Source: Liolophura sinensis (lineage: Eukaryota > Mollusca > Polyplacophora > Chitonida > Chitonidae). Taken from it: 64,000 nt of DNA. The notes under the pieces were generated by a model, which worked only from the letters and a program-made list of their open reading frames with translations, did no database searches and was not told the origin of the DNA. Of this stretch, positions 360-63,780 are shown one piece after another. The DNA is taken from contig NC_088295.1 in assembly GCF_032854445.1 (NCBI RefSeq), positions 95,225,805 to 95,289,804 on the forward strand. The letters are read 5' to 3'. The position numbers were made by a program, and so were the translations under genes. Every line of letters begins with the position of its first letter. The stretch's first letter is position 1.

Positions 360-1042
360 TGCCTCACATACACATTTAGTTAGCATAGCCAGCATTCTCC
401 CCACTTCCCACAATTTCCCTGTCATTACATGTTATCAGTCCCTATAATGTTCTGCTCACCATACTCACCGCCATACAAATTTAGTTAGCACAGCAAACCC
501 TCTCCCCACTTCCCACGACTTCCCTGGCATGACACGTTAGCTGTGATATCAGTCCCTATAATGTTCTGCTCACCATACTCACCGCCATACAAATTTAGTT
601 AGCACAGCAAACCCTCTCCCCACTTCCCATGACTTCCCTGTCATGACACCTTAGCTGTGATATCAGACTCTATCATATTCTGCTCACCATACTCACCGCC
701 ATACAAATTTAGTTAGCACAGCAAACCCTCTGCCCACTTCCCACGACTTCCCTGTCATGACACCTTAGCTGTGATATCAGTCCCTATCATATTCTGCTCA
801 CCATACTCACCGCCATACAAATTTAGTTAGCACAGCAAACCCTCTCCCCACTTCCCATGACTTCCCTGTCATGACACCTTAGCTGTGATATCAGACCCTA
901 TCATATTCTGCTCACCATACTCACCGCCATACAAATTTAGTTAGCACGGCAAACCCTCTCCCCACTTCCCATGACTTCCCTGTCATGACACGTTAGCTGT
1001 GATATCAGTCCCTATCATATTCTGCTCACAATACTCACCGCC
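360..1042 (-). repeat. SIDT: 114-bp array carrying the exon 8 donor
   Basis: About six units of ~114 bp (motif starts near 451, 565, 680, 793, 906 and 1021, with a diverged partial unit before). On the minus strand each holds ATGGCG|gtgagtat followed by ggtgagcag, equal to the exon 8 donor with six exon bases and its intronic continuation. The outermost unit is the real junction. Confidence 0.85.
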
Positions 1043-1091
1043 ATCATTTCTCTCTGCCTCAGACAGATCAGGGATCCCCCAGTTCTTGTCA
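1039..1091 (-). CDS. SIDT: SIDT exon 8: start of cytoplasmic loop
   Basis: This 53-bp exon (phase 2 in, phase 1 out) encodes [17 protein letters not shown], an acidic stretch expected for the variable loop after the first helix. The acceptor is tttggttacag and the donor GATGGCG|gtgagtat. The last six exon bases and the donor are reproduced in each unit of the 114-bp array that follows. Phase agreement with exon 7 supports it; the loop itself is poorly conserved. Confidence 0.8.
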
Positions 1092-4000
1092 CTGTAACCA
1101 AACAAGCAGGACCAAATATTTACGAATAGTATTTGACAGAAACAAGAAATGTTGATCAAAAATGCTGCATCCCACCAAGCATTATTGGTAATATGTGTAC
1201 TGTGTGCAGGAGAATCACAAGTGATGTGTACAGTGTACAAGATGGCCACAAGTGATGTGTACAAGATGGCCACAAGTGATGTGTACAGTGTAGAAGATGG
1301 CCACAAGTGATGTGTACAGTGTAGAAGATGGCCACAAGTGATGTGTACTGTGTGCAGGAGGATCACAAGTGATGTGTACTGTGTGCAGGAGGATCACAAG
1401 TGATGTGTACAGTGTACAAGATAGCCACAAGTGATGTGTATACTGTGTGCAGGAGGATCACAAATGATGTGTACTGTGTGCAGGAGGACCACAAGTGATG
1501 TGTACTGTGTGCAGGAGGATCACAAGTGATGTGTACTGTGCAGGAGGGTTACAAGTGATGTGTACTGTGTGCAGGAGGATCACAAGTGATGTGTACTGTG
1601 CCCGGGGGAACCACAAGTGATGTGTACTCTGTATGGGAGGACCACAAGTGATGTGTGTTCTGTACAGGAGGGCGACAAGTGATGTGCACTGTGTGCAGAA
1701 GGGCCACAAGTGATGTGCACTGTGTGCAGCAGGATCACTGAAAACGTGTACTGTGTGCAGGAGGATCACAAGCGATGTGTACTGTGTGCAGGAGGGCAAA
1801 CAAATGACGTATGTTCTGTGCAGAAAGATCACAAATGATGTGTGCTGTGTGCAGGAGGACCGCAAGTGAGGTGTGCTGTGCACAGGAGGACCACAAGTAA
1901 TGTGTGCTATGTGCAGGAAGACCACAGGTAATGTGCGCTGTCTGCAGGTGGACCACAGGTAATGTGTTCTGTGTGCAGGAGGATCACAGGTTACGTGTGC
2001 TATGTGCAGGAAGACCACAGGTAATGTGTGCTGTCTGCAGGTGGACCACAGGTAATGTGCGCTGTCTGCAGGTGGACCACAGGTAATGTGTGCTATGCAC
2101 AGGAGGACCACAAGTAATGTGTGCTATGTGCGGGAAGACCACAAGTGACGTGTACTGTGTGCAGGAGGACCACAGGTAATGTGTGCTATGTGCAGGAGGA
2201 TCACAGGTAATGTGTGCTATTTGCAGGTGAACCACAGGTAATGTGCCCTGTGTGCAGGTGGGCCACAGGTAATGTGTGCTATGCGCAGGAGGACCACAGG
2301 TAATGTGTGCTATGTGCAGGAGGACCACAGGTAATGTGTACTGTGTGCAGGTGGACCACAGGTAATGTGTACTGTGTGCAGGTGGACAACAGGTAATGTG
2401 TGCTATGTGCAGGAAGACCACAGGTAATATGCGCTGTCTGCAGGTGGACCACAGGTAATGTGCGCTGTCTGCAGGTGGACCACAGGTAATGTGCGCTGTG
2501 CGCAGGTGGACCACAGGTAATGTGCACTATGTGCAGGTGGATCATAGGTAATGTACGCTGTGTGCAGGTGGACCACAGGTAAAGTGTGCTGGGTGCAGGA
2601 GGATTGCAGGTTACGTGTGCTGTGTGCAGGTGGACCTCAGGTAATGTGTGCTATGTGCGGGAAGACCACAAGTGACGTGTACTGTGTGCAGGAGGACCAC
2701 AGGTAATGTGTGCTATGTGCAGGAGGATCACAGGTAATGTGTGCTATTTGCAGGTGAACCACAGGTAATGTGAACTGTATGCAGGTGGGCCACAGGTAAT
2801 GTGTGCTATGTGCAGGAGGACCACAGGTAATGTGTACTGTGTGCAGGTGGACCACAGGTAATGTGTACTGTGTGTAGGTGGATCACAGGTAATGTGTGCT
2901 GTGTGCAGGAGGACCACAGGTATTGTGCGCTGTCTGCAGGAGGACCACAGGTAATGTGTACTGTGTGCAGGTGGACCACAGGTAATGTGTGTTGTGTGTA
3001 GGTGGATCACAGGTAATGTGTGCTATGTACAGGAGGACCACAGGTAATGTATGCTGTCTGCAGGAGGACCACAGGTAATGTGTGCTATGTGCAGGAGGAT
3101 CACAGGTAATGTGTGCTATGTGCAAGTGGACCACACGTAATGTGTGCTATGTGCAGGAGGATCACAGGTAATGTGCACTGTGTGCAGATGGACCACATGT
3201 AATGTGTGCTATGTGCAGGAGGATCACAGGTAATGTGTGCTATGTGCAGGTGGACTACAGGCAATCTGTACTGTGTGCAGGTGGACAGGAAGTGATGTGT
3301 GATATGTGCAGGTGGACCACAGGTAATCTGTACTGTCTGCAGGAGGCCACAGGTAATGTGTGCTATGTGCAGGAGGATCACAGGTTATCTGTACTGTGTG
3401 CCGGAGGATCACAGGTTACCTGTGCTTTGTGCAGAAGGACAACAGGTAATGTGGGCTATGTGCAGGAAGACCACAGGTAATGTGCCCTGTGTGCAGGTGG
3501 ACCACAGGTAATGTGTGCTGTGTGAAGGAGGATCACAGGTTACGTGTGCTATGTGCAGGTGGACCTCAGGTAATGTGTGCTATGTGTAGGAGGATCACAG
3601 GTAATGTGTGCTATATGCAGGTGAACCATAGGTAATGTGTACTGTGTGCAGGTGGACCACAGGTAATGTGTGCTATGTGCAGGAGGATCACAGGTAATGT
3701 GAGCTATGTGCAGGTGGACCACATGTAATCTGTACTGTGTGCAGGTGGACAGGAAGTGATGTTTGATATGTGCAGGTGGACCACAGGTAATGTGTGTTAG
3801 GTGCAGGAGGATCAGAGATAATGTGTACTATGTGCAGGTGGACCACAGGTAATCCATACTGTGTGCAGGTGGACAGCAAGTGATAATACAGCAAGTGATG
3901 TGTGATGTGTACAGGTGGACCACAGGTAATGTGTGTTAGGTGCAGGAGGATAACAGGTAATGTGTGCTATGTTCAGGTGGACCACATGTAACCCATACTG

Positions 4001-7000
4001 TGTGCAGGTGGACAGCAAGTGATGTGTGATGTGTTCAGGTGGATCACAGGTAATCTGTACTGTCTGCAGGAGGACCACAGGTAATGTGTGCTATGTGCAG
4101 GAGGATCACAGGTAATGTGTGCTATGTGCAGGTGAACCACAGGTAATGTGTACTGGTGGACCACAGGTAATCTGTGCTATGTGCAGGAGGATCACAGGTA
4201 ATATGTGCTATGTGCAGGTGGACCACAGGTAATCTGTACTGTGTGCAGGTGGACAGGAAGTGATGTGCAGGTGGACCATAGGTAATCCATACTGTGTGCA
4301 GGTGGACAGCAAGTGATAATACAGCAAGTGATGTGTGATGTGTACAGGTGGACCACAGGTAATGTGTGTTAGGTGCAGGAGGATAACAGGCAATGTGTGC
4401 TATGTGCAGGAGGATCACAGGTAATGTGTGCTATGTGCAGGTGAACCACAGGTAATGTGTACTGGTGGACCACAGGTAATCTGTGCAATGTGCAGGAGGA
4501 TCACAGGTAATATGTGCTATGTGCAGGTGGACCACAGGTAATCTGTACTGTGTGCAGGTGGACAGGAAGTGATGTGTGATATGTGCAGGTGGACCACAGG
4601 TAATGTGTGTTAGGTGCAGGAGGATCAGAGATAATGTGTACTATGTGCAGGTGGACCACAGGTAATCCATACTGTGTGCAGGTGGACAGCAAGTGATAAT
4701 ACAGCAAGGACCACAGGTAATCTGTACTGTGTGCAGGTGGACCACAGGTAATCTGTACTGTGTGCAGGTGGACCACAGGTAATCTGTACTGTGTGCAGGT
4801 GAACCACAGGTAATGTGTGCTATGTGCAGGAGGACCACAGGTTATCTGTACTGTGTGCAGGAGGATCAAAAGTGAGGTGTGCTGTGTAGTGCAGGAAGTC
4901 CCCCTATATAAATGTACATGTAAATCGTGACAGATGGCCACTGCAAATGAAGGAGGACTTACCATATGTGATAAAAACAGGCTATAAGCACTGCAGCCAT
5001 GTAGAAGCCAGCAAACACTACCACAGCGATGACAATTGCCGTTACATACTCACTGGCTGAAACACAAACACACATGTAATATTAATCTAAAATGGACAGC
5101 ATACTCAGGTGTAATGTCCACAAGTGAGCCACCCCTCCGAGGAATTTTATGACAATGTTTTCTGGCTTTACAGGCCTTGTTATTTCCTTTTCCTTTGGCA
5201 GTTTTATTTCAGGCTTTTGTATCTGGCGTGTATCTGGCATTGTTTTATTGGTTATGAGACATTTGGTTTTCAGCCCTAATCTGGAATTCATTTATTAATT
5301 TTGAGATGTTTGGTTTCCAGACTTTACCAGGCATTGTTTTACTGGTTGTGTGATGTTTGGTTTCCTGGCTTTTCCTTGCATTGTTTTATTGGTAGTGAGA
5401 TGTCTTTTTTCCAGGCTTTACCTGGAATTGTTTTATTGGTTGTGAGATGTTTGGTTTTCACACCTTACCTGACATTGTTTTCTTGGTTGTGAGATGTTTG
5501 GTTTTCACACTTTACCTGACATTGTTTTCTTGGTTGTGAGATGTTTGGTTTTCACACTTTACCTGACATTGTTTTCTTGGTTGTGAGATGTTTGGTTTCC
5601 AGACTTTACTTGGCATTGTTTTATTGGTTGTGGGATGTTTGGTTTCCATACCTTACCTGGCACTGTTTTATTGGTTGTTAGATATCTGGTTTCCACACTT
5701 TACCTAGTACTGTTTTATTGGTTGTGAGATGTTTGGCTTTCAGACCTTACCTGGCATTGTTTTATTGGTTGTGAGATATCTGGTTTCCAGACTTACCTGG
5801 GACTGTTTTATTAGTTGTGAGATGTCTGCTACCCAGGCTTTACTTGGCATTGTTTTCTAGGTTGTAAGATGTTTGGTTTTTAGCCCTTACCTGGCATTGT
5901 TTTCTTGGTTGTGAGAGTTATGTTTTTCACCCGTGGTAAAATACTCTCAATAGTCGTACAGTCCCTATTATTTGCCTGAAGGACCAAAACCACAAAAAAG
6001 GACGCTGTGCTGAAATCACTCCTCTGCAAAAGATGAATAAACAAATGACCATAATCCCACAAACACAACTAAATGTTTTGTCCTTAATACTTGAAAAGAG
6101 AACAGTTGATGGTGTTCAGTTGATAAGGTTAATAAATTTTTAAAAAATGAAAACTTTAAGACACAGAAAAGCTACATGAGTGTAGTACATCTGGGGTATG
6201 AGGGAAAGCACTGGACCTTGACTGTAATGGCCGCCTTGGTGGTCATGGTCTGGTACATCCCACGGAACTTCACATTGTTATCCATCTCAAACACCGGGCA
6301 CTGAAAATAGGTGGAAAAAGACACACCGAAAATACCCTCTGGTACTCCTGTAAAATATCATCAGTTTTCCTACAATACTGAATTGTGATGTTAAATACAT
6401 GTACATGTAGATTTTTGTCTTTGTACCAAAACAGCTTTTGTATAACATAAGCTGCAAATAATGATAATCTCTAAATTGAGAAGACACAATGTACATGAAA
6501 ACATAATCTCCACAGGGAACACACAATGAACATGAAAACATATAATCTCCACAGGGAACACAAGGTGGTTACCTTTGTGTAAAGGTAACAAGAACACTCC
6601 ATGTACTCAAACAAACAGTTCTTGGGTGTACAACGTTTTAATGTGTCAGAGCTGGCCAGTAGAACCAAAGAACACTACTCCAATAAACAGTACTTGGGTG
6701 TACAAGGTTTTACTGTGTCAGAGCTGGCCAGTACAACCAGAGAACACTACTCCAACAAACAGTACTTGGGTGTACAAGGTTTTAATGGGGTTACCTTTGT
6801 GTCCTGGACTGCTAGAATGGCACAGTGTGCACTGTCAGAGCTGGTCAGTACAACCAGAGACAACTACTCCAACAAACAGTTCTTGGGTGTACAAGGTTTT
6901 AATGGGGTTACCTTTGTGTCCTGGACTGACAGAATGGCACAGTGTGTACTGTCAGAGCTGGTCAGTACAACCAGAGAACACTACTCCAACAAACAGTACT

Positions 7001-10000
7001 TGGGTGTACAAGGTTTTAATGTGGTTACCTTTGTGTCCTGGACTGACAGAATGGCACAGTGTGTACTTTCAGAGCTGACCAGTACAACCAGAGACAACTA
7101 CTCCAACAAACAGTTCTTGGGTGTACAAGGTTTTAATGGGGTTGCCTTTGTGTCCTGGACTGACAGAATCGCACAGTGTGTACTGTCAGAGCTGATCAGT
7201 ACAACCAGAGACAACTACTCCAACAAACAGTTCTTGGGTGTACAAGGTTTTAATGGGGTTACCTTTGTGTCCTGGACTGACAGAATGGCACAGTGTGGAC
7301 TGTCAGAGCTGGCCAGTACAACCAGCGAGTCAACGCCATCAGGGAAGGTGTAGCGAAAGAAAGAGGGCTCTGAAGGTGTCACGCTGAACACTTTGCTCTC
7401 ATGCTCCCTGAAACAATTATATTTATTGATTTATTTAATTGCTGTTCAAAGCTGTGCTCGAAAGTATTTCACTTATATGACAGCATATATAATTAGACTC
7501 ATCGGAACAGTTTATATATACATAAACACTCCCTTGAACACTTATAGGCTGGTCTACACACACTCCCTGGAACACTTATAGGCTGGTCTACACACACTCC
7601 CTGGAACACTTATAGGCTGGTCTACACACACTCCCTGGAACACTTATAGGCTGGTCTACAAACACTCCGTGGAACAGATTAATGCAGGTCAACATACGCT
7701 CCCTAAAATAGTTATATGTATATACATTCCCTAAAATAGTTATATGCGTATACATTCCCTAAGACAGTTACATGCTACATGTAACCTACATACACACCTT
7801 AAAACAGTTATATGCTAGCCTACATACACACCTTAAACAGTTGTATGCTAGCCTACATACAAACCTTAAAACAGTTATATGTTAGCCTACATACACACCT
7901 TAGAACAGTTATATGCTGGCCTACATACACACCTTAGAACAGTTATATGCTGGCCTACATACACACCTTAACACAGTTATATGCTAGCCTACATACACAC
8001 CTTAGAACAGTTATGTGCTGGCCTACATACACACCTTAGAACAGTTATATGCTGGACTACATACACACCTTAAAACAGTTATATGCATACATACACACTT
8101 TAAAACAGTTATATGCTGGCCTACATACACTCCTTGGAACACTTATGTGCTGGACGACATACACTCCCTGGAACACTTATGTGCTGGACGACATACACTC
8201 CCTGGAACACTTATGTGCTGGACGACATACACTCCCTGAAACATTTATGTGCTGGACTACATACACTCCCTGGAACACTTATTTGCTTGACTACATACAC
8301 TCCCTGGAACACTTATGTGCTAGATGACATACACTCCCTGGAACACTTATGTGCTGGACGACATACACTCTCTGGAACACTTATGTGCTGGACGGCATAC
8401 ACTCCAAAAAAGAGTGATATTCTTAGCTACATAAACTCTTTATAAAAGTTACATGTACAAACACTCCCTAAAACAGTTACATGTACATATACTCCCAGTA
8501 GCAGTTACATGTACATACACTCCCTGGAACTGTCACATGTAAATACACTCCCCGGATCAGTGACATGTAAATACACTCCCTGGAACAGTTACATGTACAT
8601 ACACTCCCTGAAACAGTTACATGTACAAACACTTCACGGAACAGTTACATGTACATACACTCCCTGGACAGTTACACGTACATACACTCCCCGGAGCAGT
8701 TACATGTTTATGCACTCCCTGGAGCGTTACACGTACATACACTCCCCGGAACAATTACATGTACATACACTCCCTGGAACTGTCACATGTACATACACTC
8801 CCTGGAACAGTTACATGCAGTGAATAAACACTTAATGAGGCCCCAGGGTGACTTACTCGAGCTGGAAGCTGTCCACAGGCCATGCAAGGAGGGTGTACTC
8901 TGTCCACTCCTTGGTCATTGAGGAGACGTCTACGTAAATCAGGTGGCTCTGGGAACTGATGGACATGTTGCCGTCCTCCGGGCAGAGTGTACGGCTCACC
9001 TTATAGTAATCATACCTGAACAACAAAAAGACTGTAGTTCTTGTCAGTAGTCATACCTGAACAACAGAAAGAGTTTAGCTCTTGTCAATAGTCATACCTG
9101 AACAACAGAAAGAGTGTAGCTCTTGTCAATAGTCACACCTGAACAACAGAAAGAGTGTAGCTCTTGTCAATATCCAACCTGAACAACAGAAAGTGTGTAG
9201 CTCTGGTCAACAGTCATACCTGAACAACAGAAAGAGTGTATCTCTTGTCAATATCCAACCTGAACAACAGAAAGAGTGTATCTCTTGTCAATAGTCATAC
9301 CTGAACAACAGAAAGAGTTTAGCTCTTGTCAATAGTCATACCTGAACAACAAAAAGAGTGAAGCTCTTGTCAATAGTCATACCTGAACAACAGAAAGAGC
9401 ATAGCTCTTGTCAATAGCCATACCTGAACAACAGAAAGAGTGTAGCTCTTGTCAATAGTCATACCCGAACAACAGAAAGACTGTAGCTCTTGTCAATAGT
9501 CATACCTGAACAACAGAAAGAGTTTAGCTCTTGTCAATAGTCATACCTGAACAACAAAAAGAGTGAAGCTCTTGTCAATAGTCATACCTGAACAACAGAA
9601 AAGCGTAGCTCTTGTCAATAGCCATACCTGAACAACAGAAAGAGTGTAGCTCTTGTCAATAGTCAAACCTGAACAACAGAAAGACTGTAGCTCCTGTCAA
9701 TAGTCATACCTGAACAACAGAAAGAGTGTAGCTCTTGTCAATAGTCATACATGAACAACAAACATAGTGCGGCTCCTGTCAGTAGTCATACCTCAACAAC
9801 AGACACTGTACAGCAGAAAGAGTGTAGCTCTGGTCAATAGTCACACCTGAACAACAACAGAAGGAGTGTACTCTTGTCAATAGTCACACCTGAACAAGAA
9901 ACACAGTGCAGCTCCTACCAGTTGTCATACCTGAACAACAGACATAGTGCAGCTTTTGTCAATAGTCATACCTAAACAACAAACACAGTACAGCTCTTGT

Positions 10001-12994
10001 CAATAGTCCTACCTGAACAACAACAGCAGTATAGCTCTTGTGAATACTCATACCTGAACAACAAACACTGTACAACTCCTGTCAGTAGTCATACCTGAAC
10101 AACAGACACAGTACAGCTCCTGTCAATAGTCATACCTGAAAAATAACAGCAGTGCAGCTTTTGTGAATACTCATACCTGAACAACAAACACTGTACAACT
10201 CCTGTCAGTAGTGATACCTGAACAACACACACAGTACAGCTCTTGTCAATAGTCATACCCGAGTAACACACCAATTATGGCTCTTGTCAGAGTTCATACA
10301 TGAACAACTGACGCAGTACAGCTCTTGTCAGTTCTCATACATAAAGAACAGAGGCAGTACAGCTCTTGTTATTAGTTATACCTATCAACACACACAATGC
10401 AGCTCTTGTCAGTAGTCACACCTGAACAACAAACACGGTATAGCTCTTGTCAATCATTATACCTGAAAACTAGTACAGCTCCTGACAGTAGTCATACCTG
10501 TAGTACAGCTTCTAACAGTAGTCATACCTGTACAATTCACACAATGTAGCTCTTGTCAATACTCATACCTGAACGGCAAACATAGTGCAGCTCCTGTCAG
10601 TTGTCAACCTGAACAACACACACAAGCAGCTCTTGTCAGTGGTCACAGCTTAACAACAAACACAGTATGGCTCCTGTCATCAGTCATAGCTGAACAACAC
10701 ACAGGATAGAGCTCCTGTCACTTGTCATACACGAATAACACACAGAGTACAGCTCTTGTTAGTTTTCATACCTGAACAACAGACACAGCACAGCTCTTCT
10801 TATCAATCATACCTGAACAACACACACTCTACATACAGAGCTCCTGTCAGTGGTAACTTTTACATAAATCTTGCAGTCAGAATTAGAGGTATCCAACCTG
10901 ACACCTCAAACTGATATACAGAAGTTTTCCCAATGGGAGACCAGGTCAAACGTAACTTGATCATCACCACTTCACTGGCGGGTATCGCTATTATACTTTA
11001 TCGAAGTTCTTTCGTAGCTACAAGTATCTCATACAGGATGGTTAATTCATTCTGAATTGCACAGGTCACCTACGTGTATTCCAACCACATAGGTATCTGC
11101 CAGGAGAGAATGCTCTTCTGTTGGCGGACAACAAACAAGAGTGGGAAGTCTTTCTGAGCGTCTTCACTAGTCACCTGCACTCTGACAGCTGTGGTCTAGA
11201 ACAAAACATAAAACAGTGTAGAACAGGCAAAGGAATTCAACAGGTCTGTTCTGATCATCAATACAACCTTTATATGATGTATATAACAGATCTATCCTGA
11301 TCAACAATACAACAGTTATATGATGCATATAACAGGTCTGTATTGATCATCAATACAACCTTTATATGATGCTTATAACAGGTCTGTTCTGATCTTTATT
11401 GGCCACATGTATTTCTCTGTATGCATTTGTACTGTAATCATTATATCACATACCTTATTGACCACATGTATTTCTCCCTATGTATTGTAGTGTAATCATT
11501 ATATCACATACCTTATTGGCCACATGTATTTCTCTGTATGTATTGTACTCTAATCATTATATCACATACCTTATTGGCCACATGTATTTCTCCCTATGTA
11601 TTGCAGTGTAATCATTATATTACATACCTTATTGGCCACATGTATTTCTCTGTATGTATTGTACTCTATTCATTATATCACATACCTTATTGGCCACATG
11701 TATTTCTCCCTATGTATTGCAGTGTAATCATTATATTACATACCTTATTGGCCACATGTATTTCTCTGTATGTATTGTAGTGTAATCATTACATCACATA
11801 CCTTATTGGCCACATGTATTTCTCTGTATGTATTGCACTGTAATCATTACATCACATACCTTATTGGCCACATGTATTTCTCCCTATGTATTGTACTGTA
11901 ATCATCATATCACATACCTTATTGCCCACATGTATTTCTCTGTATGCATTGTACTGTAATCATTATATCACATACCTTATTGCCCACATGTATTTCTCTG
12001 TATGTATTGTACTGTAATCATTATATCACATACCTTATTGGCCACATGTATTTCTCTGTATGTATTGTACTCTAATCATTATATCACATATCTTATTGGC
12101 CACATGTATTTCTCTCTATGTATTGTACTGTAATCATTATATCACATACCTTATTGGCCACATGTATTTCTCTGTATGTATTGTACTCTAATCATTATAT
12201 CACATATCTTATTGGCCACATGTATTTCTCTCTATGTATTGTACTGTAATCATTACATCACATACCTTATTGGCCACATGTATTTCTCTGTATGTATTGT
12301 ACTGTAATCATTATATCACATACCTTATTGGCCACATGTATTTCTCTGTATGTATTGTACTGTAATCATTATATTACATACCTTATTGGCCACATGTATT
12401 TCTCCCTATGTATTTTACTCTAATCATTATATCACATACCTTATTGGCCACATGTATTTCTCCCTATGTATTGTACTCTAATCATTATATCACATACCTT
12501 ATTGGCCACATGTATTTCTCCCTATGTATTGTACTGTAATCATTATATCACATACCTTATTGGCCACATGTATTTCTCCCTATGTATTGTACTGTAATCA
12601 TTATATCACATACCTTATTGGCCACATGTATTTCTCTGTATGTATTGTACTGTAATCATTATATCACATACCTTATTGGCCACATGTATTTCTCTGTATG
12701 TATTGTACTGTAATCATTATATCACATACCTTATTGGCCACATGTATTTCTCTGTATGTAAACACATACAGAATATCCACCCCTTGCTTGACTTTTCCTG
12801 TGTACTCATGACTGAAGTTGGCAGTAATTGTTGTCACATTGACTTTTGGGGAATTCCCTGCACTGGCCTCATCCATTAGACCACTTCCCATAAAGTTAAC
12901 TGCAGCATTTGCACAAACCAGCTGGAGTAGAGTACAGGTGATCATGGCCAAGCAAAGATGAGATCCAAACAGACCAGCCATGCTGAACACTAGA
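1039..12994 (-). CDS. SIDT: SID1 transmembrane family protein (SIDT), N-terminal part, 8 exons
   Basis: Eight exons read from 12994 down to 1039 give about 347 residues: signal peptide, extracellular domain, first transmembrane helix and start of the cytoplasmic loop. The key match is the block [10 protein letters not shown] followed by [12 protein letters not shown], which corresponds to CPVYDLDNNV and MYQTMTKKAAIT of vertebrate SIDT1/SIDT2; the preceding SVQDTK corresponds to SIQDV. The family is related to C. elegans SID-1, the dsRNA importer. Vertebrate members are multipass proteins of lysosomal and plasma membranes linked to nucleic-acid and lipid/cholesterol handling. The remaining helices must lie beyond position 1. 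All seven exon joins keep phase and no frame break is seen. An acceptor 13 bases upstream of the start codon implies at least one untranslated first exon above 13000, which I could not place. Introns are dominated by tandem arrays, listed separately. The family call is strong; SIDT1-like versus SIDT2-like cannot be told. Confidence 0.93.
1190..4890. repeat. 31-bp minisatellite filling SIDT intron 7
   Basis: Over 100 units of ~31 bp, with cores aagtgatgtgtactgtgtgc to ~1900 and then ccacaggtaatgtgtgc. Longer blocks are repeated as higher-order copies: a diagnostic series near 2154 recurs near 2684, and one near 3872 recurs near 4305. A match to the exon 7 donor (shared cctcct and cacat words) is too weak to call. 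Many short open frames here are products of the repeat. Confidence 0.9.
4963..5056 (-). CDS. SIDT: SIDT exon 7: first transmembrane helix
   Basis: This 94-bp exon (phase 1 in, phase 2 out) encodes [20 protein letters not shown] and [10 protein letters not shown], one hydrophobic helix that matches the family's first membrane pass, where LGIFLSFYLLTVLLAC occurs in vertebrates. The acceptor is gtgtttcag|CCAG and the donor CATATG|gtaagtcc. Confidence 0.92.
5300..5930 (-). repeat. SIDT: 47-bp array carrying the exon 6 donor
   Basis: About 13 units of 47 bp, the last overlapping exon 6. On the minus strand each has a copy of the final ~25 coding bases of exon 6, ending AACAATGCCAG|gtaaa, then ~22 intronic bases. 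Copies vary at a few positions but nearly all keep the GT. Confidence 0.88.
5891..6023 (-). CDS. SIDT: SIDT exon 6: end of extracellular domain
   Basis: This 133-bp exon (phase 0 in, phase 1 out) encodes [19 protein letters not shown] and ends [12 protein letters not shown]. It matches the family pattern KDFPSNSFYVVVVVKTED...KTLSVLVS. The acceptor is tcttttgcag and the donor CCAG|gtaaggg. About 25 coding bases with the donor recur in a 47-bp array in the following intron. Intron 5 (6024-6216) is only 193 bp and carries no array. Confidence 0.92.
6217..6300 (-). CDS. SIDT: SIDT exon 5: family signature block
   Basis: This 84-bp exon (phase 0 both ends) encodes [20 protein letters not shown] and TKAAITVK, the most diagnostic SIDT stretch in the window. 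The acceptor is ttttcag|TGCCC. The donor AAG|gtccagtg is weak against consensus but is the only one that joins in frame to exon 6, giving ITVK-RSDF as in the family's ITVQRKDF. Confidence 0.95.
6480..6575. repeat. Short ~40-bp repeat
   Basis: Two to three imperfect copies around aatctccacagggaacaca between exon 5 and the exon 4 donor array. No junction similarity seen. Confidence 0.6.
6620..7330 (-). repeat. SIDT: ~118-bp array carrying the exon 4 3' end and donor
   Basis: Five units of ~118 bp and one of ~71 bp; the last overlaps exon 4. On the minus strand each unit carries about 66 exon bases encoding versions of [16 protein letters not shown] without stops, then the donor AAAG|gtaacccc and ~50 intronic bases. 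The copies are 3' exon ends without their own acceptor. Confidence 0.92.
7263..7407 (-). CDS. SIDT: SIDT exon 4: extracellular domain, array-flanked on both sides
   Basis: This 145-bp exon (phase 2 in, phase 0 out) encodes [20 protein letters not shown] and then [16 protein letters not shown], matching the family pattern PEGVDSVIVKVTS...CSVISIQD. The acceptor is ttgtttcag|GGAG and the donor ACAAAG|gtaacc. The preceding intron is an array of acceptor-containing units and the following intron an array of units holding the last ~66 coding bases plus the donor. Confidence 0.92.
7424..7490 (-). mobile_element. Short fragment of the same tRNA-SINE tail
   Basis: A diverged piece of the SINE 3' part (aagtatttcacttatatgac) next to SIDT exon 4, between the exon and its acceptor array. 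Confidence 0.55.
7510..8830 (-). repeat. SIDT: 31-37 bp array carrying the exon 4 acceptor
   Basis: About 35-40 units in sub-blocks (33 bp to ~7680, ~37 bp to ~8110, 34 bp to ~8400, ~31 bp to ~8820). On the minus strand units have a form of gtttcag|GGAG, mostly gttccag|ggagtg, matching the exon 4 acceptor with four exon bases. The block from 8440 on is rich in acatgtac. Confidence 0.8.
8857..9015 (-). CDS. SIDT: SIDT exon 3: extracellular domain
   Basis: This 159-bp exon (phase 2 in, phase 2 out) encodes [15 protein letters not shown], corresponding to the family's VERTLC/VSRTLCP region, and continues to PVDSFQLE, the counterpart of the family's DDFVL. The acceptor is ttgttcag|GTATGA and the donor CTCGA|gtaagtc. 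The acceptor, with its first six exon bases, is the core of the 40-bp array that fills the preceding intron. Confidence 0.9.
9010..10860 (-). repeat. SIDT: 40-bp array carrying the exon 3 acceptor
   Basis: About 45 units of ~40 bp. On the minus strand each has ctttctgttgttcag|gtatg, equal to the exon 3 acceptor with its pyrimidine tract and first exon bases. Units near 9000-9750 are the most regular and diverge with distance. The array makes up nearly all of intron 2. Confidence 0.9.
11074..11195 (-). CDS. SIDT: SIDT exon 2: extracellular domain
   Basis: This 122-bp exon enters in phase 0 after gttctag and leaves in phase 2 at ACAC|gtaggtga. It encodes [20 protein letters not shown] followed by [15 protein letters not shown], which fits the SIDT strand pattern [18 protein letters not shown]. 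Flanking introns are almost entirely tandem repeat. Confidence 0.9.
11220..11400. repeat. ~43-bp repeat beside exon 2
   Basis: About four imperfect units with caggtctgttctgatcatca. It joins the 58-bp array directly. No splice-junction similarity recognised. Confidence 0.7.
11395..12760 (-). repeat. SIDT: 58-bp array carrying the exon 1 3' end and donor
   Basis: About 23 units of 58 bp, the last overlapping exon 1. On the minus strand each holds the final 31 coding bases of exon 1 (codons for [10 protein letters not shown]), the donor CAATAAG|gtatgtg and ~27 intronic bases. Copies are very similar and the donor is kept in nearly all. It makes up most of intron 1. Confidence 0.93.
12730..12994 (-). 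CDS. SIDT: SIDT exon 1 (first coding exon): start codon and signal peptide
   Basis: The start codon is at 12979-12981. The protein begins [20 protein letters not shown], a hydrophobic signal peptide that probably ends near CANA. The mature part contains two N-glycosylation sequons (NVT, NFS) and ends [10 protein letters not shown]. The exon opens after an acceptor (gtatttcag) 13 bases before the ATG and closes at the donor AATAAG|gtatgtg in phase 0. The last 31 coding bases and the donor are repeated many times in the following intron. Confidence 0.9.
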
Positions 12995-46000: not shown

Positions 46001-49000
46001 TGTGAACACCCCTGACAGGTACAGATGTGAATATACCTGAGAGATACAGATGAGAACATCCTTAACAGGAACAGATGTGAACACTTCTGACAGGTACAGA
46101 TATGAACACCCCGACAGTTACAGACGTGAACACATCTGACAGGTACAGATCTAAACACCCCTGACAGGTACAGATGTGAACATATCTGATAGGGACTGAT
46201 GTAAACACGTCTGACAGGTACAGATGTGAACACCACTGATAGGTATAGATGAGAACACTCCTTTTAGGTACAGATGTGAACACTTCTGACAGGTACAGAT
46301 GAGGACTCACTTGATAATGTAAAGTGTGATATTACCCTTTTCAGTTGACGTGCCTGGGCCTCCTGAAATGAACAGATTAGACTCATCGAAACGACATTTA
46401 TTCTTCCACATCTGCAGTTTTTCTGTGGATGAAATCGAAGGAAAGAGATGGAGAAATACGTGTATCAAAACGAAATCCAAGTAGGGCTCGTACAGGGGTG
46501 GACCCAGTGCGTAATGGGATGGGCGCAGTGTATAAGGGAGTTGACGCAGTGGGTAAGGGAGTGGACGCAGTGTATACGGGGGTGGACTCAGTGTGTAAGA
46601 GGATGGGCGCAATGTGTAAAGGAGTGAACCTAGCGCATGAAGGATGGGGGTGGAGGAATTCAGTGCATAAGTGGTTGACCCAATGTCTCAGAGAGTGGAC
46701 AAAATGTGTAAGTGAGTAGACCCCCCGTATCAAGGGGTGAACTTTTCGTGTAAGTGGGTTGACCCAGTGTGTAAAGGGATGGGCAAGTAAGGGGGTAGAC
46801 ATACATGTAGTGTTAAGGGGTGGACGTTAAGGGATAAGACACAGTATGTAAGGCGGTGGACCCAATGCATAAAGGGGTGGATCCAGTGTGTTGGTGTTTT
46901 AACCCAGTGTGTAATGGGGTGCACCCACTCTGTGAGGGGGTGGACCAAAACGGTGTAAGAAAGTGGACCCACTCTGTAAGGGAGTGTGCAAGTGGGTTGA
47001 TCCAGTGTGTAAAGGGGTGGACACAATGTGTAAGGGAGTGGGCCCATGGTGTAAGGGGGCGGGCGCAGTGTGTAAGGTGATGAACGCAGTGTATAAGGAA
47101 ATGTTGAACATTCTGTAAGGGGGTGGACCATCTGTGTATGAGTATAGACGCTGTGTGTAAGGAGGTGGACCCAGTGTGTAAGGGCGTGGGCCCAGTGTGT
47201 AATGGGGGTGGACCCAGAGTGTAAGAGTATAGAACGTTGTATGTAAGATAGTGGACCTAGTCTGTGATGGGGTGGACCCACTGTGTAAGAGAGATGACGC
47301 AGGGTTTTGTTTTGGAGAGGACGCTTTGTGTTACTGGAGAATGCAGTGTGTAAGGGCGGTGACGCTTGGTGTAAAGGCAGTGGCCCCAAAATTTAGGGGA
47401 ATTGACGCGGTGTGTACGGAAATTCATCCAGTGTATAAAGGCGGTGGATCCAGTGTGTAAACGGGTAGACCTAGTCTGTAAGGTTGTTGGTCTTGAGTGT
47501 AAGGGGGTCGACCTAGTGTGTAATGGGGTGGACATCGTGTGTAAGTGACCCACTGTGGAATGGGGTCCAGTGTGCAATGGGGTTGACCCAGTGTGTGAAC
47601 AGGTAGGCCTAGTGTGCAATGGGGTGGACCCAGTGTGTAATGGGGTGGGCGCGATGTGTAAGGGTATGGTAATTTTTTGATAAAGGATACCAATTATTTG
47701 GTAAAGTATAAATACCTGATATTTCTGTCACACTGACGTAAAAGCTGGTTTTTGACGTCTTTGCCACGCCATTGATGTTACAGGTGACGGTCACGCTATA
47801 TTCACCCTCATTTGTCGGACTAACATTGGTTAGAGTCAGTGTGGTGACTATTCCCGGTAGACTGACCTCCTGACCGTACACCACCAGCCTGACCGGACCC
47901 GCCTCTTCCAGGTGAGACTCTAGAGCGTCACTCTCTTCTGTTTTCTCCCACTTCACCTGGACGCTGCCGGAGGACGGTCGTGCATAAAATGGCACGGAGA
48001 TTGTCTCTGTTTTCCCCAAACCAATCACCAATGTCTGTGAGTGATTCTGGAATACAGCTGGAGCTAAAACAGACAGAAACAGTAGAACACCATGACTGTC
48101 AGAGTATGGAATAGTCACCCGATCTATTAGCTGGATTATAATATATCTAACACACCACTAGTAAAGAAACAAGCATCCTGAGGATCTATGTCCCTTGTCA
48201 TAAGTGGGGGGAAGTTATTTCTTTGTGATGGGTGGGGGAGGGGGTCATTATGATGGGTGGAGGAAGTTGTTCCTTTGTGATGGGTGGGAGAGGTTTTTTC
48301 TATGTGATGGGTGGGGGGTTTCTTGTGATGGTGGGGGAGGTGGCTTCTTTGTGATGGGTGGGGGAGGTACCGGTAGTTTCTTTGTGATGGTTGAGGGATG
48401 ATTTCTTTGTGATGGGTGGGGGGTAGGGGGTCTTTGTGATGCGTTGTGGAGGTTGTTTCCTTGTGATGTTGTAGTTTGTCTGTGTTGGGTGGGTGTGGTC
48501 TTTCTGCGATGGGTGAGGGGATGGTTTCTCTGTAATCGGTGGAGTGTGATTTCTATGTAATGGGTGGGAGCAGGTGGTTTCTCTATTGTGGGAGGGAGGT
48601 GGTTTGTCTATGTGTGGGAGGTTCTGTGGGGTTTGTCTGAGATGGGTGGAGGGGGGTGTCTGTGATGGGTGGAGAGGGGTCTCCGTGATGGGGGTGGGGG
48701 TGGGGGTGAGTGGTGTTGGATAATGCTGTGACAGGTGGAGCGTGGTTTCTCTGTGATGAGTGAGTGGAAGATGATTTCTCTTTTATGTGTGGGAGGTGGT
48801 TTGTCTTTTGTGTGGGAGGTGGTTTGTCGTATGTGTGGGATGTGGTTTCACTGTAATGGGTGGGAATGGTGGCTTCTCCGTGATGGATGGGGTGCAGTTT
48901 GTCTGTGATGGGTGGGGTGTGGTTTGTTATGTGTAGGAGGTGATTCCTTTGTGATGGGTGGGGGAAGTGGTTTCTGTGTCATGTGTGGGCGGTGGTTTCT

Positions 49001-52000
49001 GGTGGGTGGGGGTGTGGTGTCTCTAATATGTGTGGGCGGTGGTTTCTGGTGGATGGGGAGGAGTGGAAAATATAAAATGGGTGAGTATGCTGTGTTCCAC
49101 AAGTTTTCTTGTTAACTCAAGAGAGAGTTGCTTTGTACAAAAATGCACCCCTTGATAATAAAAAAAATGTCATATGCAAAGCCATGATGTCTACTGCATG
49201 AGAAACTGATGACATTTACCTCGGTGACGTTAGAGAGGAATTCATTACAGGCAATACGCCTGTAACCTGAATGATTAGTGACAGGAAGTTGACTACAGCC
49301 CCCAAATCTGTAAAGTATCCCGAAAAAACTTTCTTTCTACAAACGTCAGGGGAACAAACGCTGCATCATGAATCAGATACATGTACTGTACATGAACAGC
49401 CGTAAGCCAATTACATCATAGTACTTACACTAATTACATGTAGTACTAAAATCAAATCACACCACAGTACTTACACCAATCACATGTAGTGCTAAACTCA
49501 AATCACACCACAGTACTCACACTAACTGTTGTCCGCTACATATGCATGAAAATCACTGCTTGTCACCCACCCACAAGCTTAAAGCACCCAGGTCAGACTT
49601 ACTTGGAGGAGCCACATAGAACTGCCCTTTTTGTCCAGACTTTATCCCGTTAGTCACTGTACACACATAGTCCCCCGTGTCAGCGTACGTCAGGGTGTCA
49701 GGCAAAGTGTAGGTGACAGAGGTGCCTCTTGTCTGAGTCCCCAGCTTGCGTACGAGGGTCTCCCCAACACGGTGCTCCCCCAGGCTGAAGGTGTAGGCGT
49801 TAGGAATACCCTCAGCTGTACAGGTTAAGGTGTGGGAGCTGCTGTCGTAAGTCACTGTTACATCAGGAGGGTCTGAAATGATGAAGACAGTTCCCTACAG
49901 GTACAGACATCCGTATCTGACTCGTGTACAACATCCACATTTGATAACCATCCACTTTACAAACACCGCTCAGCATACAATAGTTACAGGTACAGACATC
50001 CGTATTTGACTCGCACAAAACATTAATGCCATAGACTTACAATCATCCCTATCAGACTGGTATACAGCATTAGTTTTTGATAACCATCCACTTACACCCA
50101 TCCATACATGACTTGTACAGAACATCAACGCTGGATAATTCTCCACTTACTGTCATCCATATCTGACGTATATACAACATCAATGTTTGATAATCATAGA
50201 CTTACAGTCATCCCTATCTGACTGGTATACAACATCAATGTTTGATAACCATAGACTCACAGTCATCCCTATCTGACTGGTATACAATATCAATGTTTGA
50301 TGATCATAGACTTACAGTCATCTCTATCTGACTGGTATACAACATCAATGTTTGATAATCATAGACTGACAGTCATCTCTATCTGACGTATATACAACAT
50401 GAATGTTTGATAATCATAGACTTACAGTCATCTCTATCTGTATAGTATACAACATCAGTCTGTGATGACCATAGACTTACAGTCATCTCTATCTGACTGG
50501 TATACAACATCAATGTTTGATAATCATAGACTGACAGTCATCCATGTCTGTATAGTGTATAACATCAATGATTGACAACCACAGACTTACAGTCATTCCT
50601 GTCTGTATAGTGTACAACATCAATGTTTGATAATCATAGACTGACAGTCATCCCTATCTGTATAGTGTACAACATTAATGTTTGATAACCATTCAGTTAC
50701 AGTCATCTGCATCTCCTTCGTTTACAACAACAACGCTTGATAACCATCCATTTACAGTCATCCGCATCTGCTTCGTTTACATCAACAATGCTTGATAACG
50801 ATTCACTTACAATGACCCATATCTGACCCGTCTATAACATCAGTGCTTGATAGCATCCATTTATAGTTATCCGTATCGGACTTGAATACATCATTAATGT
50901 TTGATAGCTATCCGCTTACAGTCATCCGTATCTGACTTATATACTACATCAATGTTTGATAGCCATCCGCTTACAGTCATCCGCTTCTGACTTATATACT
51001 ACATAAATGTTTGATAGCCATCCGTATACAGTCATCAATTAATGACTTGTGCCCAAGATCAACCCTTGATAACCATGCACTTACTGTCATGTGTATCTGA
51101 CTCGTACCCAACACCGGCGCTTTCACTTCATAAATACCGGTACCACTGGATATACCATAGTCATATACCTTGTAAACCAGTTGACTACCTAAACACCAGC
51201 TAGTTACAGACCTGTTCACAGTTTATAACATTAAAGTCAATCTATTCAATTTTACCATATCTTTTACAATATAACGGCTGGTACACTGAAGACCCTTACA
51301 TTCCTGTCCTGAAAACTGTGAAACATGTGAAGAACAAAACAAGATGTTAGTCTGTCTTCTTATGCTACATGTAGTTTGATGTATTGACTAATCAATCAAT
51401 TGCCAAATACTCTCTAAAAACTACTGTGTACTAGTGGAACTCAATATTGTGGTCAAAATGCACCTCCACATTATTTTGTGTACTAGCAATACACACATTG
51501 TGTGTTCATGTAACATATCCACAGTGACCTGTGTACACGTGTATTTACCGCTGATACACATATCATTGTGGATGTGTCAATTTGTACACAATCGGTTTTT
51601 GAGAGTACTATTTTATAAGTTTCGTAGCATTTGACAAAATGCGCCGTATCAGCAAAGCTTGTGAATTAGATCTTGTCTTACTTTCATAGTTTGATTTGAC
51701 AAGTCGATACAATAAATCGCATGAACGCTGAAAAATACCAGAAAGAGGAAACAGGTGTAGGCAGTCGGCTAGCTAGATACACTTCCCAGGTGGAAATGTA
51801 CCTGACAACCTGATCAAACTACTCACACTGTACAACAAGCTGCACGGTCGTCTGTCCACTCCCAACACTGTTCGTGACATTACACGTATACTCCCCAGAA
51901 GCTGACCTCTGTACATTCTCTATCCTGTAAACAGCTGATGTTCTCTTGACCTCTGCACTCTTTGACATCTTCCACGCAAATGTAGATTGGGGATTCCCCT

Positions 52001-55000
52001 GGGCAGAGCACACTAAGATGGCTGTTTCATCCTCTGTTACATTGACAGGAGTGGTAGCACTAGGGGTGTCCAGGTCTGTAACACATGTGTAAGAACATAG
52101 ATGACGCTGTTACATATTAATGATTGATGACAGAAAGTCATAATAATGTCAGAAATCAAGTCCACATGTACTACGGTACATCGATATCTTCCTGTCTGCG
52201 GGTGATGCATCACTTCTGGTCTGTAGTACTGTCCTACCGTCAGGCATCTACACACATGTAGACTTCATGATTAGCTGACCCATGTCAGACAGAGAAACCA
52301 GGACAGATACAAACAACATACTGTACAACTCTGATCCACCTGGGGACACTCCAAATCCATGGTTCACATACATGTACATGTATAAAGATGAGCAAGTCTT
52401 CCGCTTCTATGAAAATTTTCAAAAACAGTCTTACTAGCAACTGGATATTAAATATAATAATAATATCTTTATTTATCGAAGGCACCTCGTGTTTAATATA
52501 CAATGACACCGTTCTTCTCCAAAACCTTCACAGAGAAAACAATATATAGGGAACGTACTTCAGCGATCAATCCCAAAAAACATAAAATATACATGAAACA
52601 AGTTAAAGCATCATGTAGTTTGAAAAGTGAAGCCACATACATTCATATATACCAAAAGCAACAACACAACCACTAGTGTTGTCGCCACAACTGTCCCAAG
52701 GCTTGGTCATGTAGTTGACATTTTACTCAGGCCATTTATTGCTCATGTTAAAAGTAACATCAGAGATGAGATCGACTCCCTAAATAAGTTATCGCAGAAT
52801 GTAGACCATGATGTCGAAATGACCACTTTTTATGTGAAAAGTTTATATAGCAACATTCCGTATGAGCTAGGAATAGAAGCAATCCAATATTGGTTAAATC
52901 AACATCCCGAATCACTGGACAAACGCTTCAAAAGTGACTTTCTAACAGATTGTATAAATTTATCTTAAACAATAACTCCTTCTGTTTTGTCATTATGTAT
53001 AAATTTTTTGGACAGCAATGAAAACAAAGATGGCTAAGGCTTATGCAACTTTAGTAATGGGCTATTAAGAGATATCTCTTTACAAAAAAATGTTTGTACA
53101 TGATTTTGCAACAGACTTTAAAAGCCAGTGGAAAAGATACTTGGATGATTGTTTTATTTTCTGGCCAAAGGAAGCCGGGCCGATTGGTCTTCTCTTTGAT
53201 GGCCTCAATAACCTTTATCCCCAAATATCCTTTACAATGGAAGTAAATTTTAAGTCAGTACACTTTTTAGACATAATTGTCTTAAAAGTGGGGACTTTCA
53301 TCAACTGATATTTATCGAAAACACACGGACACACAACTTTATCTTCGTTTTAGTTCGAATCACACGCGTCAGACTCGAGAAAACATCCCATATTACCTTG
53401 CAAGAAGAATGTGTACAATAGTAAACGTAAAATTGGGAACAAAATAGAGATTAATAGAACTTAAATCATGTCTAGGCAACAGGGGTTATCCGGAAGGATT
53501 AATTGACAAAGGAATTAAGACAGCTCAGTCATTCATTGACTGATCTGAGGGAACCCTCACAGAAAAAAACCTGACGAGAAGGTAATTCCATTTGTTTCAA
53601 CACATAATCCCAATAACATCTTCCCAATCATTGTGAATACCTTACCAATTCTAAAAAACAGTGACAGGATGAAAGATATTCTGGCCCAATCTACAGTCAT
53701 TTATAGCAAACGACAGGCTCCAAGCCTGAAAAAAAAATGTTAACTCGCGCTCACTTTTCGAAAAAATCCTTGACTCCATCGGTTTCTAAATGCAATAAAC
53801 CCAGATGTGGAGAATGCATTCACATGTTAGAAGGATCAAGCTTTCAATTTGAGAGAGACGATCCTTTGTTTAATGTAAAATTTCACTTGTGCTGCTCTGT
53901 AAAACTGTTGTATCACATGTTTGCATGGGGTGTGGCAAACAATATATTGGCCAGGCCTCAGATCTCCGCTCCAGATTGACAGTGCATCGAAATATCAACA
54001 ACGAAGAACATTGTCATCTCTCAGTAAGTAAGCAAATACGCTCATGCGCATTGTCTTTGACTCCCTCGTTCAAAGTCTTTCCAAAGAATTAGATGGAAAT
54101 CAAGTCACCTGAGATGTAAAAGAAACTTTCTCCATAAATAAATACCACCTATGTCTCAATGGTAGGTAGTCACCGGCTGTAATATCGTGTCTCATAATAT
54201 GATGATGTACCACGTGCTTGTATAATTTACGTTGATTAATTTTGTCAAACAAGTTCATTTTTCACTCATTGTATATATTACTCATTGTGTATGTACAAAT
54301 ACTATGTCACAGATTATCCCCATGGTCATCCGTTCGATGGTGATAAAGACGCATCGTCACTAGTCCACCTGCGGATAGACACTCGCAGGTACTGATTAAT
54401 CTATTGTTCGCTACTTAACAGCTTTGCATATGTACGACCTTGTTCCCAGCAACAATTTATCCATGTATCATGCCATGTAACTAAACCACTGCCTGTTTTG
54501 GCATGTACGTAACATGTCCCATAGTTACTGGTAACACATGTCCTATATAAATGACCTTTCTGGACATCCATATTCATATTCCTTGAAAATAACATGAAGT
54601 TTCAAACTGCAGTTGGAATATAACAGAATGTAGAAAGTTGAGAGGGCGTTTTATTATTTTTTTCATATATATATATATGCATTTTAGCTTTCGACATATC
54701 ACTGAACATGTAAAGTTAAGGAAGATGTGATTTTATCTAAATGGTTGATACAATGAAAGCATACATGCATGCCTGCACATTTCAGTTATTGTCTGAATAT
54801 AACTGTAAGTTTAAGAAGCTTGATTTAAAGCTTGATAGGGAACGAGCTTCTTTTACCTGGAAAGGAAGGCAGTTCCAAAGAATATGGCCCACTTGTGGAC
54901 AGAGATCATAGCTTGATGTACGATCATTTAAAAAACCTACAGTACAAGTGGTTTTGTAAATGGTCAATGTGCTAGTCAGAAAATTTATCTTGCCTTCGTT

Positions 55001-55366: not shown

Positions 55367-55599
55367 CTAGGGCAAACAAAAGTTTGATCGTGACATCATT
55401 TTATTCTGACCATAACAGGCTCAGACTTCTTGATGCAGATAAAAGTCTATATAGAAGAACAAGGGTATGTGAATATAGAATTTACAGCAATCAACTACAT
55501 ATTGTACAGGTTAAATGATGAACATAAAATCTATCACAGTTTAAAAGAACAGTTCATTGTCACCTACATGTAGTCTAGTCTTAATGTTACACGTCATCT

Positions 55600-56565
55600 G
55601 TATTGTACAGGTGAGTCTTCCGGTGTACCTGATCACCATATTCTGAAGTGTGTTACTAATGACAAGACATCCCACCACAACATGTACCTGTGGTAAAGGT
55701 TTACCCAGGTGAGTCTTCCTGTCTACCTGATCACCATATTCTGAAGTGTGTTACTAATGACAAGACATCTCACCACAACATGTACCTGTTGTAAAGGTTT
55801 ACACAGGTGAGTCTTCCTGTCTACCTGATCACCATATTCTGAAGTGTGTTACTAATGACAAGACATCCCACCACAACATGTACCTGTTGTAAAGGTTTAC
55901 ACAGGTGAGTCTTCCTGTCTACCTGATCACCATATTCTGAAGTGTGTTACTAATGACAAGACATTGCACCACAACATGTACCTGTTGTAAAGGTTTACAC
56001 AGGTGAGTCTTCCTGTCTACCTGATCACCATATTCTAAAGTGTGTTACTAATGACAAGACAGCCAACCACAACATGTACCTGTGGTAAAGGGTTACACAG
56101 GTGAGTCTTCCTGTCTACCTGATCACCATATTCTGAAGTGTGTTACTAATGACAAGACATCCCACCACAACATGTACTTGTGGTAAAGGTTTACACAGGT
56201 GAGTCTTCCTGTTTACCTGATCACCATATTCTGAAGTGCGTTACTAATGACAGGACATCCCACCACAACATATACCTGTGGTAAAGGTTTACACAGGTGA
56301 GTCTTCCTGTCTACCTGATCACCATATTCTGAAGTGTGTTACTAATGACAAGACATCCCACCACAACATGTACCTGTGGTAAAGGTTTACACAGGTGAGT
56401 CTTCCTGTCTACCTGATCACCATATTCTGAAGTGTGTTACTAATGACAGGACATCCCACCACAACATGTACCTGTGGTAAAGGTTTACACAGGTGAGTCT
56501 TCCTGTCTACCTGATCACCATATTCTGAAGTGTGTTACTAATGACAAGACATCCCACTACAACAT
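55600..56565. repeat. 98-bp minisatellite, left part, interrupted by a LINE
   Basis: About ten units of 98 bp with gtggtaaaggtttacacagg and ctgatcaccatattctgaag. Continues at 62724 after the LINE. Copies are highly similar. Confidence 0.93.
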
Positions 56566-62486: not shown

Positions 62487-62723
62487 GGTGTTGTTGTTGT
62501 TCAGGCTGGATCAACAGGTAAGTCACAAGCACTGTTGTTTGCAGTCACTGATTTTAGCAATTCTGTGCTTCATAAACTCTATCTTCACGTTTGATTGCCC
62601 AAATTACCAAATGTAGAACATATCCACACAAACATATGTGAATCAACTTAGGGAAACTCTCAAGACAGCCAGGATTACCACCTCTCACTGGTCCGCCTTA
62701 TTCGATAGACGCCATCTTGAGCC
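62487..62723 (-). promoter_or_regulatory. LINE 5' UTR with YY1-like start
   Basis: About 237 bp between the element's 5' end and ORF1. The first bases on the minus strand include caagatggcg, similar to the YY1 site (AAGATGGCGGC) that sets the start of human L1 transcription. The resemblance is by motif only. Confidence 0.4.
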
Positions 62724-63780
62724 ACAACATGTACCTGTGGTAAAGGTTTACACAGGTGAGTCTTCCTGTCTACCTGATCACCATATTCTGAAGTATGTTA
62801 CTAATGACAAGACATCCCACCACAACATGTACCTGTGGTAAAGGTTTACACAGGAGAGGATTCTGTGTACATGATCGCCATATTCTGAAGTGTGTTATTA
62901 ATAACAAGACATCCCACCACAACATGTACCTGTGGTAAAGGTTTACACAGGTGAGGTTTCTGTGTACTTGATCACCATATTCTAAAGTGTGTTACTAATG
63001 ACAAGACATCCCACCACAACATGTACCTGTGGTAAAGGTTTACACAGGAGAGGATTCTGTGTACATGATCGCCATATTCTGAAGTGTGTTGTTAATAACA
63101 AGACATCCCACCACAACATGTACCTGTGGTAAAGGTTTACACAGGTGAGGTTTCTGTGTACTTGATCACCATATTCTAAAGTGTGTTACTAATGACAAGA
63201 CATCCCACCACAACATGTACCTGTTGTAAAGGTTTACAAAGGTGAGTCTTCCTGTCTACCTGATCACCATATTCTGAAGTGTGTTAATAATGACAAGACA
63301 TCCCACCACAACATGTACCTGTGGTAAAGGTTTACACAGGTGAGGTCTCTGTGTACCTGATCACCATATTCTGAAGTGTGTTAGTAATGACAAGACATCC
63401 CACCACAACATATACCTGTGGTAAAGGTTTACACAGGTGAGGTTTCTGTGTACTTGATCACCGTATTCTGAAGTGTGTTACTAATGACAAGACATCCCAC
63501 CACAACATATACCTGTGGTAAAGGTTTACACAGGTGAGTTTCCTGTCTACCTGATCACCATATTCTGAAGTGTGTTACTAATGACAAGACATCCCACCAC
63601 CACATGTACCTGTGGTAAAGGTTTACACAGGTGAGTCTTCCTGTGTAACTGATCACCATATTCTGAAGTGTGTTACTAATGACAAGACATCCCACCACCA
63701 CATGTACCTGTGGTAAAGGTTTACACAGGTGAGTCTTTCTGTCTACCTGATCACCATATTCTGAAGTGTGTTACTAATTA
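62724..63780. repeat. 98-bp minisatellite, right part
   Basis: About 11 units, continuing the array at 55600-56565. Two unit variants alternate: one with gtgagtcttcctgtctac, one with gtgaggtttctgtgtac. An earlier block (aggagaggattctgtgtac) is duplicated about 200 bp apart. Confidence 0.92.

Follow-up and report, generated by a model that had tools for sequence, protein, structure and literature searches.

Splice-junction-spanning minisatellites in the introns of a SIDT gene of the chiton Liolophura sinensis

The SIDT gene and the arrays in its introns

The window, i.e., the whole stretch of 64,000 nucleotides that was analyzed, comes from contig C1 in an assembly of 609 Mb and 632 contigs, and its positions 360 to 12994 carry exons 1 to 8 of a minus-strand SIDT gene, which span 12981 to 1039. 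According to our analysis, the translation of these eight exons matches the SIDT1 chain 8k13_A, a solved structure (1.2e-56), while the 495-residue translation of exons 1 to 12 matches Pfam PF13965 (7.6e-94); the homologue search returned five matches, three of them vertebrate. Splice sites were placed from homology, reading frame, and GT/AG dinucleotides, as follows.

12730..12981, minus strand: SIDT exon 1, donor AAG|gtatgt (bar at the junction); reading frame and homology to SIDT1
11074..11195, minus strand: SIDT exon 2; reading frame and homology
8857..9015, minus strand: SIDT exon 3; reading frame and homology
7263..7407, minus strand: SIDT exon 4, donor AAG|gtaacc; reading frame and homology
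6217..6300, minus strand: SIDT exon 5; gene model
5891..6023, minus strand: SIDT exon 6, donor CAG|gtaagg; reading frame and homology
4963..5056, minus strand: SIDT exon 7; reading frame and homology
1039..1091, minus strand: SIDT exon 8, donor GCG|gtgagt; reading frame and homology

The donor of exon 5 is unusual (gtccag). Once a 30-kb flank is added to the window, the model comprises 16 exons, and the reading frame is continuous through exons 1 to 12, which would be compatible with normal mRNA splicing. One small exon is probably missing from the model between exons 12 and 13; it was searched for there and not found, and the exon 13 acceptor therefore lies outside the junction scan. Tandem arrays fill most of the introns in the window.

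11396..12760, minus strand: intron 1 array overlapping exon 1 and made of 58-bp units, in which the exon 1 donor occurs 22 times with 31 exon nucleotides each; TRF and junction scan
11239..11394, minus strand: second intron 1 array, 46-bp unit, free of junction copies; TRF and junction tests
9010..10827, minus strand: intron 2 array made of 41-bp units, in which the exon 3 acceptor occurs 37 times with a median of 9 and a maximum of 16 exon nucleotides; TRF and junction scan
7526..8817, minus strand: arrays in intron 3 with units of 34 bp and 28 bp and a borderline 4-nt resemblance to the exon 4 acceptor; TRF and consensus-unit test
6604..7325, minus strand: intron 4 array made of 117-bp units, in which the exon 4 donor occurs 4 times with as many as 66 exon nucleotides; TRF and junction scan
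5234..5916, minus strand: intron 6 array made of 47-bp units, in which the exon 6 donor occurs 12 times with 39 to 42 exon nucleotides at lower identity; TRF and junction scan
1193..4887, minus strand: intron 7 array made of about 119 units of 31 bp, free of junction copies; TRF and junction scan
433..1044, minus strand: intron 8 array made of 114-bp units, in which the exon 8 donor occurs 5 times with 6 exon nucleotides; TRF and junction scan

An earlier note on this DNA had proposed that the arrays account for most of the intron length, and they do: 86% of introns 1 to 8 is array (intron 8 being counted whole, with its end outside the window), as is 75% of all 15 introns of the model, while intron 5 (193 nt) contains no array. 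The longest SIDT array measures about 4.4 kb. In all five window introns with confirmed junction arrays, the array runs into the exon and the real junction is its outermost copy, just as had been described.

Junction copies within and beyond the window

Each junction was scanned against its own intron in an ungapped comparison requiring a total score of at least 18, with at least 3 for the exon part and at least 6 for the intron part. Within the window, the units carry their own junction at the donors of introns 1, 4, 6, and 8 and at the acceptor of intron 2, i.e., in five of the eight introns, whereas the earlier note had counted six. The sixth, intron 3 with the exon 4 acceptor, is borderline and was not retained: its two arrays, which have related units, score 14 and 13 against a best score of 13 for any other pair, the match comprises 4 exon bases, and the nearer array stops 118 nt before the acceptor. 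Correspondingly, of the exon share of 4 to about 66 bases claimed for the units, the upper figure is found at the exon 4 donor while the confirmed minimum is 6, giving a range of 6 to 66 exon bases per SIDT unit. Introns 5 and 7, left out of the original six, gave no junction copies in the scan.

Over the whole model, introns 1, 4, 6, 8, and 13 hold donor arrays according to the scan, introns 2 and 13 hold acceptor arrays, and introns 3, 5, 7, 9, 10, 11, 14, and 15 hold none, this strict scan having covered all introns but intron 12. The exon 12 donor, scanned separately, has 40 copies, which with gaps permitted include as many as 58 exon bases, so that introns 12 and 13 contribute two donors and one acceptor outside the window. 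Intron 13 (window coordinates about -21584 to -17448) holds both a donor array and an acceptor array, 139 nt apart. Repeats thus hit both boundary types, 5' and 3', with 6/15 scanned donors and 2/14 scanned acceptors repeated, these eight junctions being distributed over 7 of the 15 introns.

The resemblance is specific to the intron concerned. When each SIDT junction was compared with the other 13 tested introns, no match was obtained (0/182 for donors and 0/182 for acceptors). Likewise, when array consensus units were compared with junctions at a score of at least 14, the claim that arrays copy their own junctions held, with 10 of 48 own array-junction pairs matching and none of the 672 other pairs. 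Nine of these ten pairs derive from the eight junctions (the intron 2 array occupying two rows), and the tenth is the borderline intron 3 (score 14); a further own pair, in intron 15, scores 12, and the top scores among unrelated pairs were 13 (one pair) and 12 (one pair).

The form recurs in other genes. A myosin head family search gave 81 exon matches, in about 19 clusters by eye, from which six loci were taken and each trimmed to 10 kb; exons were defined by the myosin head matches, and a junction was considered repeated if at least two copies were present. In loci L020 to L024, 3/20 donors and 1/25 acceptors are repeated, and in L025 none of 5 donors and 5 acceptors. Two extra donor arrays fall outside these scanned rates: one in L022, with 29 exon bases, whose exon matches Myosin_head (8e-9), and one in L024, with 61 exon bases, whose exon match is weak (0.014, below the cut-off). 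They bring the total over the six loci to five donor cases and one acceptor case. L024 also holds, at 9189-9489 of the oriented locus, a 32-bp array which begins 59 nt past a myosin donor and has about 13 bases in common across the junction by eye, below threshold; it is perhaps a decayed junction case. The chaperonin (CCT) gene at L026, picked for its abundance of close exon matches, has 1/8 donors and 0/8 acceptors repeated, with six copies of at least 58 exon bases. In the Ig-like gene of the window, 0/3 donors and 0/4 acceptors have copies. This gene occupies 47600-55400 on the minus strand, with arrays nearby, and of its three profile-checked exons one is clear, one barely exceeds a single cut-off, and one falls under all cut-offs.

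Over all genes scanned, a small sample in which SIDT was picked for being striking, 10/51 donors and 3/56 acceptors are repeated (Fisher p=0.036). Array density is 21.7% in the six myosin loci versus 9.1% in 16 random 10-kb regions (Mann-Whitney p=0.07). In all, junction arrays are present at seven loci: SIDT, five of the six myosin loci, and one CCT locus. Misassembly is common in tandem arrays, and the assembly was built with a HiFi coverage of 14x and a mean read of 8.3 kb, according to a passage of its report (PMC11068029), so that an assembly artefact might be suspected. However, the copies within an array differ among themselves, a mean read exceeds even the longest SIDT array in length, and all these loci show the same form; we therefore consider an artefact highly improbable, although array copy numbers may be inexact.

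Sequence state of the decoy copies

That the arrays seed many decoy splice sites is borne out at the level of sequence, with 94/113 donor copies retaining GT and 58/70 acceptor copies retaining AG. This retention, together with the observation that the GT/AG columns of the exon 3, 6, and 8 arrays are better conserved than the mean of 38 neighboring columns, would be expected if the arrays were selected for a function, e.g., as decoy sites or through an intron length that tunes expression. However, for exons 3 and 8 the stretch used for this comparison extends past the shared unit, and in the arrays of exons 1, 4, 12, 13, and 14 at least one of the two GT/AG columns lies below the neighboring-column mean, so that constraint is inconsistent; moreover, unrelated genes carry unrelated units. 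A selected function is thus deemed very unlikely. Selective erosion or upkeep of the decoy sites was likewise set aside, since column conservation is mixed and has no consistent sign.

In each of the six SIDT donor arrays, splicing at any of the first three decoy donors would bring in an in-frame stop codon. The missing exon hid the frame of exon 13 from the script; the open frame of that exon was read separately, and a stop precedes the next copy. If SIDT is functional, these stops would imply that splicing has to use mainly the outermost copy. The copies of the exon 12 array are missing six bases (two codons) that are present in the real exon, which indicates that copies evolve freely. The real copy matches the consensus exactly in the exon 1 array, which would fit an exon edge that founded its array; across the five further arrays compared, the identity between real copy and consensus is 0.88 to 0.97.

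The identities of adjacent and distant copies are 0.943 and 0.942 in the exon 1 array, 0.932 and 0.924 in the exon 13 array, and 0.919 and 0.916 in the exon 14 array, and in the exon 3, 6, and 12 arrays neighboring copies resemble each other slightly more than distant copies do. Stepwise growth was considered and not adopted, since in three arrays adjacency barely raises the likeness of two copies; a burst, or thorough mixing of the copies, would explain the pattern equally well.

Known junction arrays and the placement of the chiton arrays

The founding paper on the amphioxus Adh3 mirage is Canestro 2002, as cited in PMC3087553. Passages of two later reports describe as mirages the junction-spanning minisatellites of the amphioxus Adh3, globin, troponin C, and PGBD5 genes, the last one imperfect (PMC3087553, PMC3902484). 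As presented there, mirages resemble the chiton arrays in that the unit spans the 5' or the 3' boundary, many but not all units retain AG or GT, and the authentic boundary adjoins the array (PMC3087553, PMC3902484). Splicing is reported in these passages to be undisturbed by the mirages (PMC3087553, PMC3902484). The hosts differ, one being a mollusc and the other a cephalochordate, and the chiton arrays have 4 to 50 copies versus 6 and 3 in two haplotypes of amphioxus BflGb6, as far as the passages go. Unlike the amphioxus cases they describe, SIDT is affected in several introns of one gene and at both ends of one intron, and its arrays make up most of the introns. The earlier note knew of no described gene with junction arrays in nearly every intron; the amphioxus mirages answer this in part, although the passages report no gene with so many (PMC3087553, PMC3902484). 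Among molluscs, the 27-bp array in intron 3 of an abalone TSSK1-like gene is, like the chiton arrays, intronic and variable in length; it is an ordinary minisatellite, and the passages on it mention no splice junction within the unit (PMC6905558). Among the papers listed by full-text searches of the open-licence literature, none reported junction-spanning arrays in a mollusc in its title or the opening of its abstract.

The chiton case belongs with the known mirage arrays and is notable for its phylum and its density. A structure that we found described only from amphioxus in the open-licence literature is now seen in a mollusc, where it affects several gene families and is dense in one gene; it has therefore emerged or been retained in animals that are far apart. 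Splice-site choice is put to a natural test in every array, the real donor or acceptor having 4 to 50 similar ones as neighbors. Intron gain through tandem duplication of exon sequence containing AG|GT was reportedly proposed by Rogers 1989 and by Gao and Lynch 2009, both cited in PMC3087553. The chiton arrays share with that model the tandem duplication of splice-site-bearing sequence; however, existing boundaries are amplified here within existing introns, and a new intron is not part of the case. Amphioxus mirages have been linked to the same idea in the passages cited (PMC3087553, PMC3902484). The chiton arrays offer raw material for models of intron gain and intron sliding, and long reads and RNA data for this genome are public. 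A reverse polarity, with the arrays older and the exon edges recruited from them, would accord with the proposal, in a passage of PMC3087553, that mirage arrays are a source of new exons and introns. However, the exons sit in frames matching old families (SIDT, myosin head, and chaperonin), which makes the exon the likelier source, and we regard this polarity as extremely improbable.

Placement was evaluated with a model in which seeds fall at random within or across intron edges and exon-internal duplications are lost, assuming that present non-array intron length equals the ancestral one and that one array equals one seed. Among the SIDT arrays, 8 of 23 cross a junction versus 5.14 expected (P(≥8)=0.09); the figures are 7 of 19 versus 5.03 without intron 12 (P=0.19) and 9 of 25 versus 5.49 when two CCT arrays are added (P=0.053). 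The fraction of the unit that is exon agrees with a uniform distribution (n=15; KS p=0.82 for medians and 0.16 for maxima), also with repeat-finder edges of the eight SIDT junctions (KS p=0.31). Non-array intron length is 44 to 303 nt in 10 of the 15 SIDT introns (9 of the 13 array-bearing ones) and does not exceed 715 nt in 13 of the 15.

Of the two mechanisms offered originally, tolerance of amplification by selection fits these counts and the uniform exon share, while amplification aimed at junctions is not required. We consider it likely that the arrays are mirage-type minisatellites of near-random birth, of which those spanning a junction survive as the exon-proximal copy still splices. 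Tandem duplication and expansion would be frequent in the chiton genome, at sites near-random relative to exons; selection would remove the duplications lying entirely within exons, and those inside introns or over one boundary would persist, the latter because splicing at the exon-proximal copy would give the same mRNA. With short introns and units of about 30 to 120 nt, boundary crossing would be common through geometry alone. Donor arrays may exceed acceptor arrays because upstream AG copies would capture the splice more readily.

The excess of crossings over expectation, largest in significance with the CCT arrays included, suggests that junctions may be preferred to some degree; an increase of the odds by as much as about sixfold is compatible with the SIDT and CCT counts, which require none. 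This excess, the predominance of donors over acceptors, and the junction arrays at both ends of intron 13 would also be accommodated if amplification were aimed at exon-intron boundaries, with junctions acting as hot spots through breaks, stalled forks, or RNA-DNA hybrids. However, the excess is not significant at 0.05, the exon overlap is spread rather than fixed, and 15 of the 23 SIDT arrays cross no junction, so that such targeting appears unlikely. It is similarly rather doubtful that exon-intron boundaries are, genome-wide, the favored birthplaces of minisatellites, donors more than acceptors, via a boundary-linked break or replication process, and that a large share of introns has been rebuilt from their own junctions.

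Further arrays lie toward the end of the window. A 97- to 98-bp array (55607-56565 and 62722-63778) is interrupted by a non-LTR retrotransposon of about 6 kb, whose frame at 58159-60405 matches RVT_1 and Exo_endo_phos. At the edges of the element, 8 of 9 bases are common by eye, while a scripted search for an exact common stretch gave none; the likeness is perhaps a target-site duplication. Next to it, at 63780-64000, there is a 103-bp array with an acceptor-like TCTACAG|GAGAATGG.
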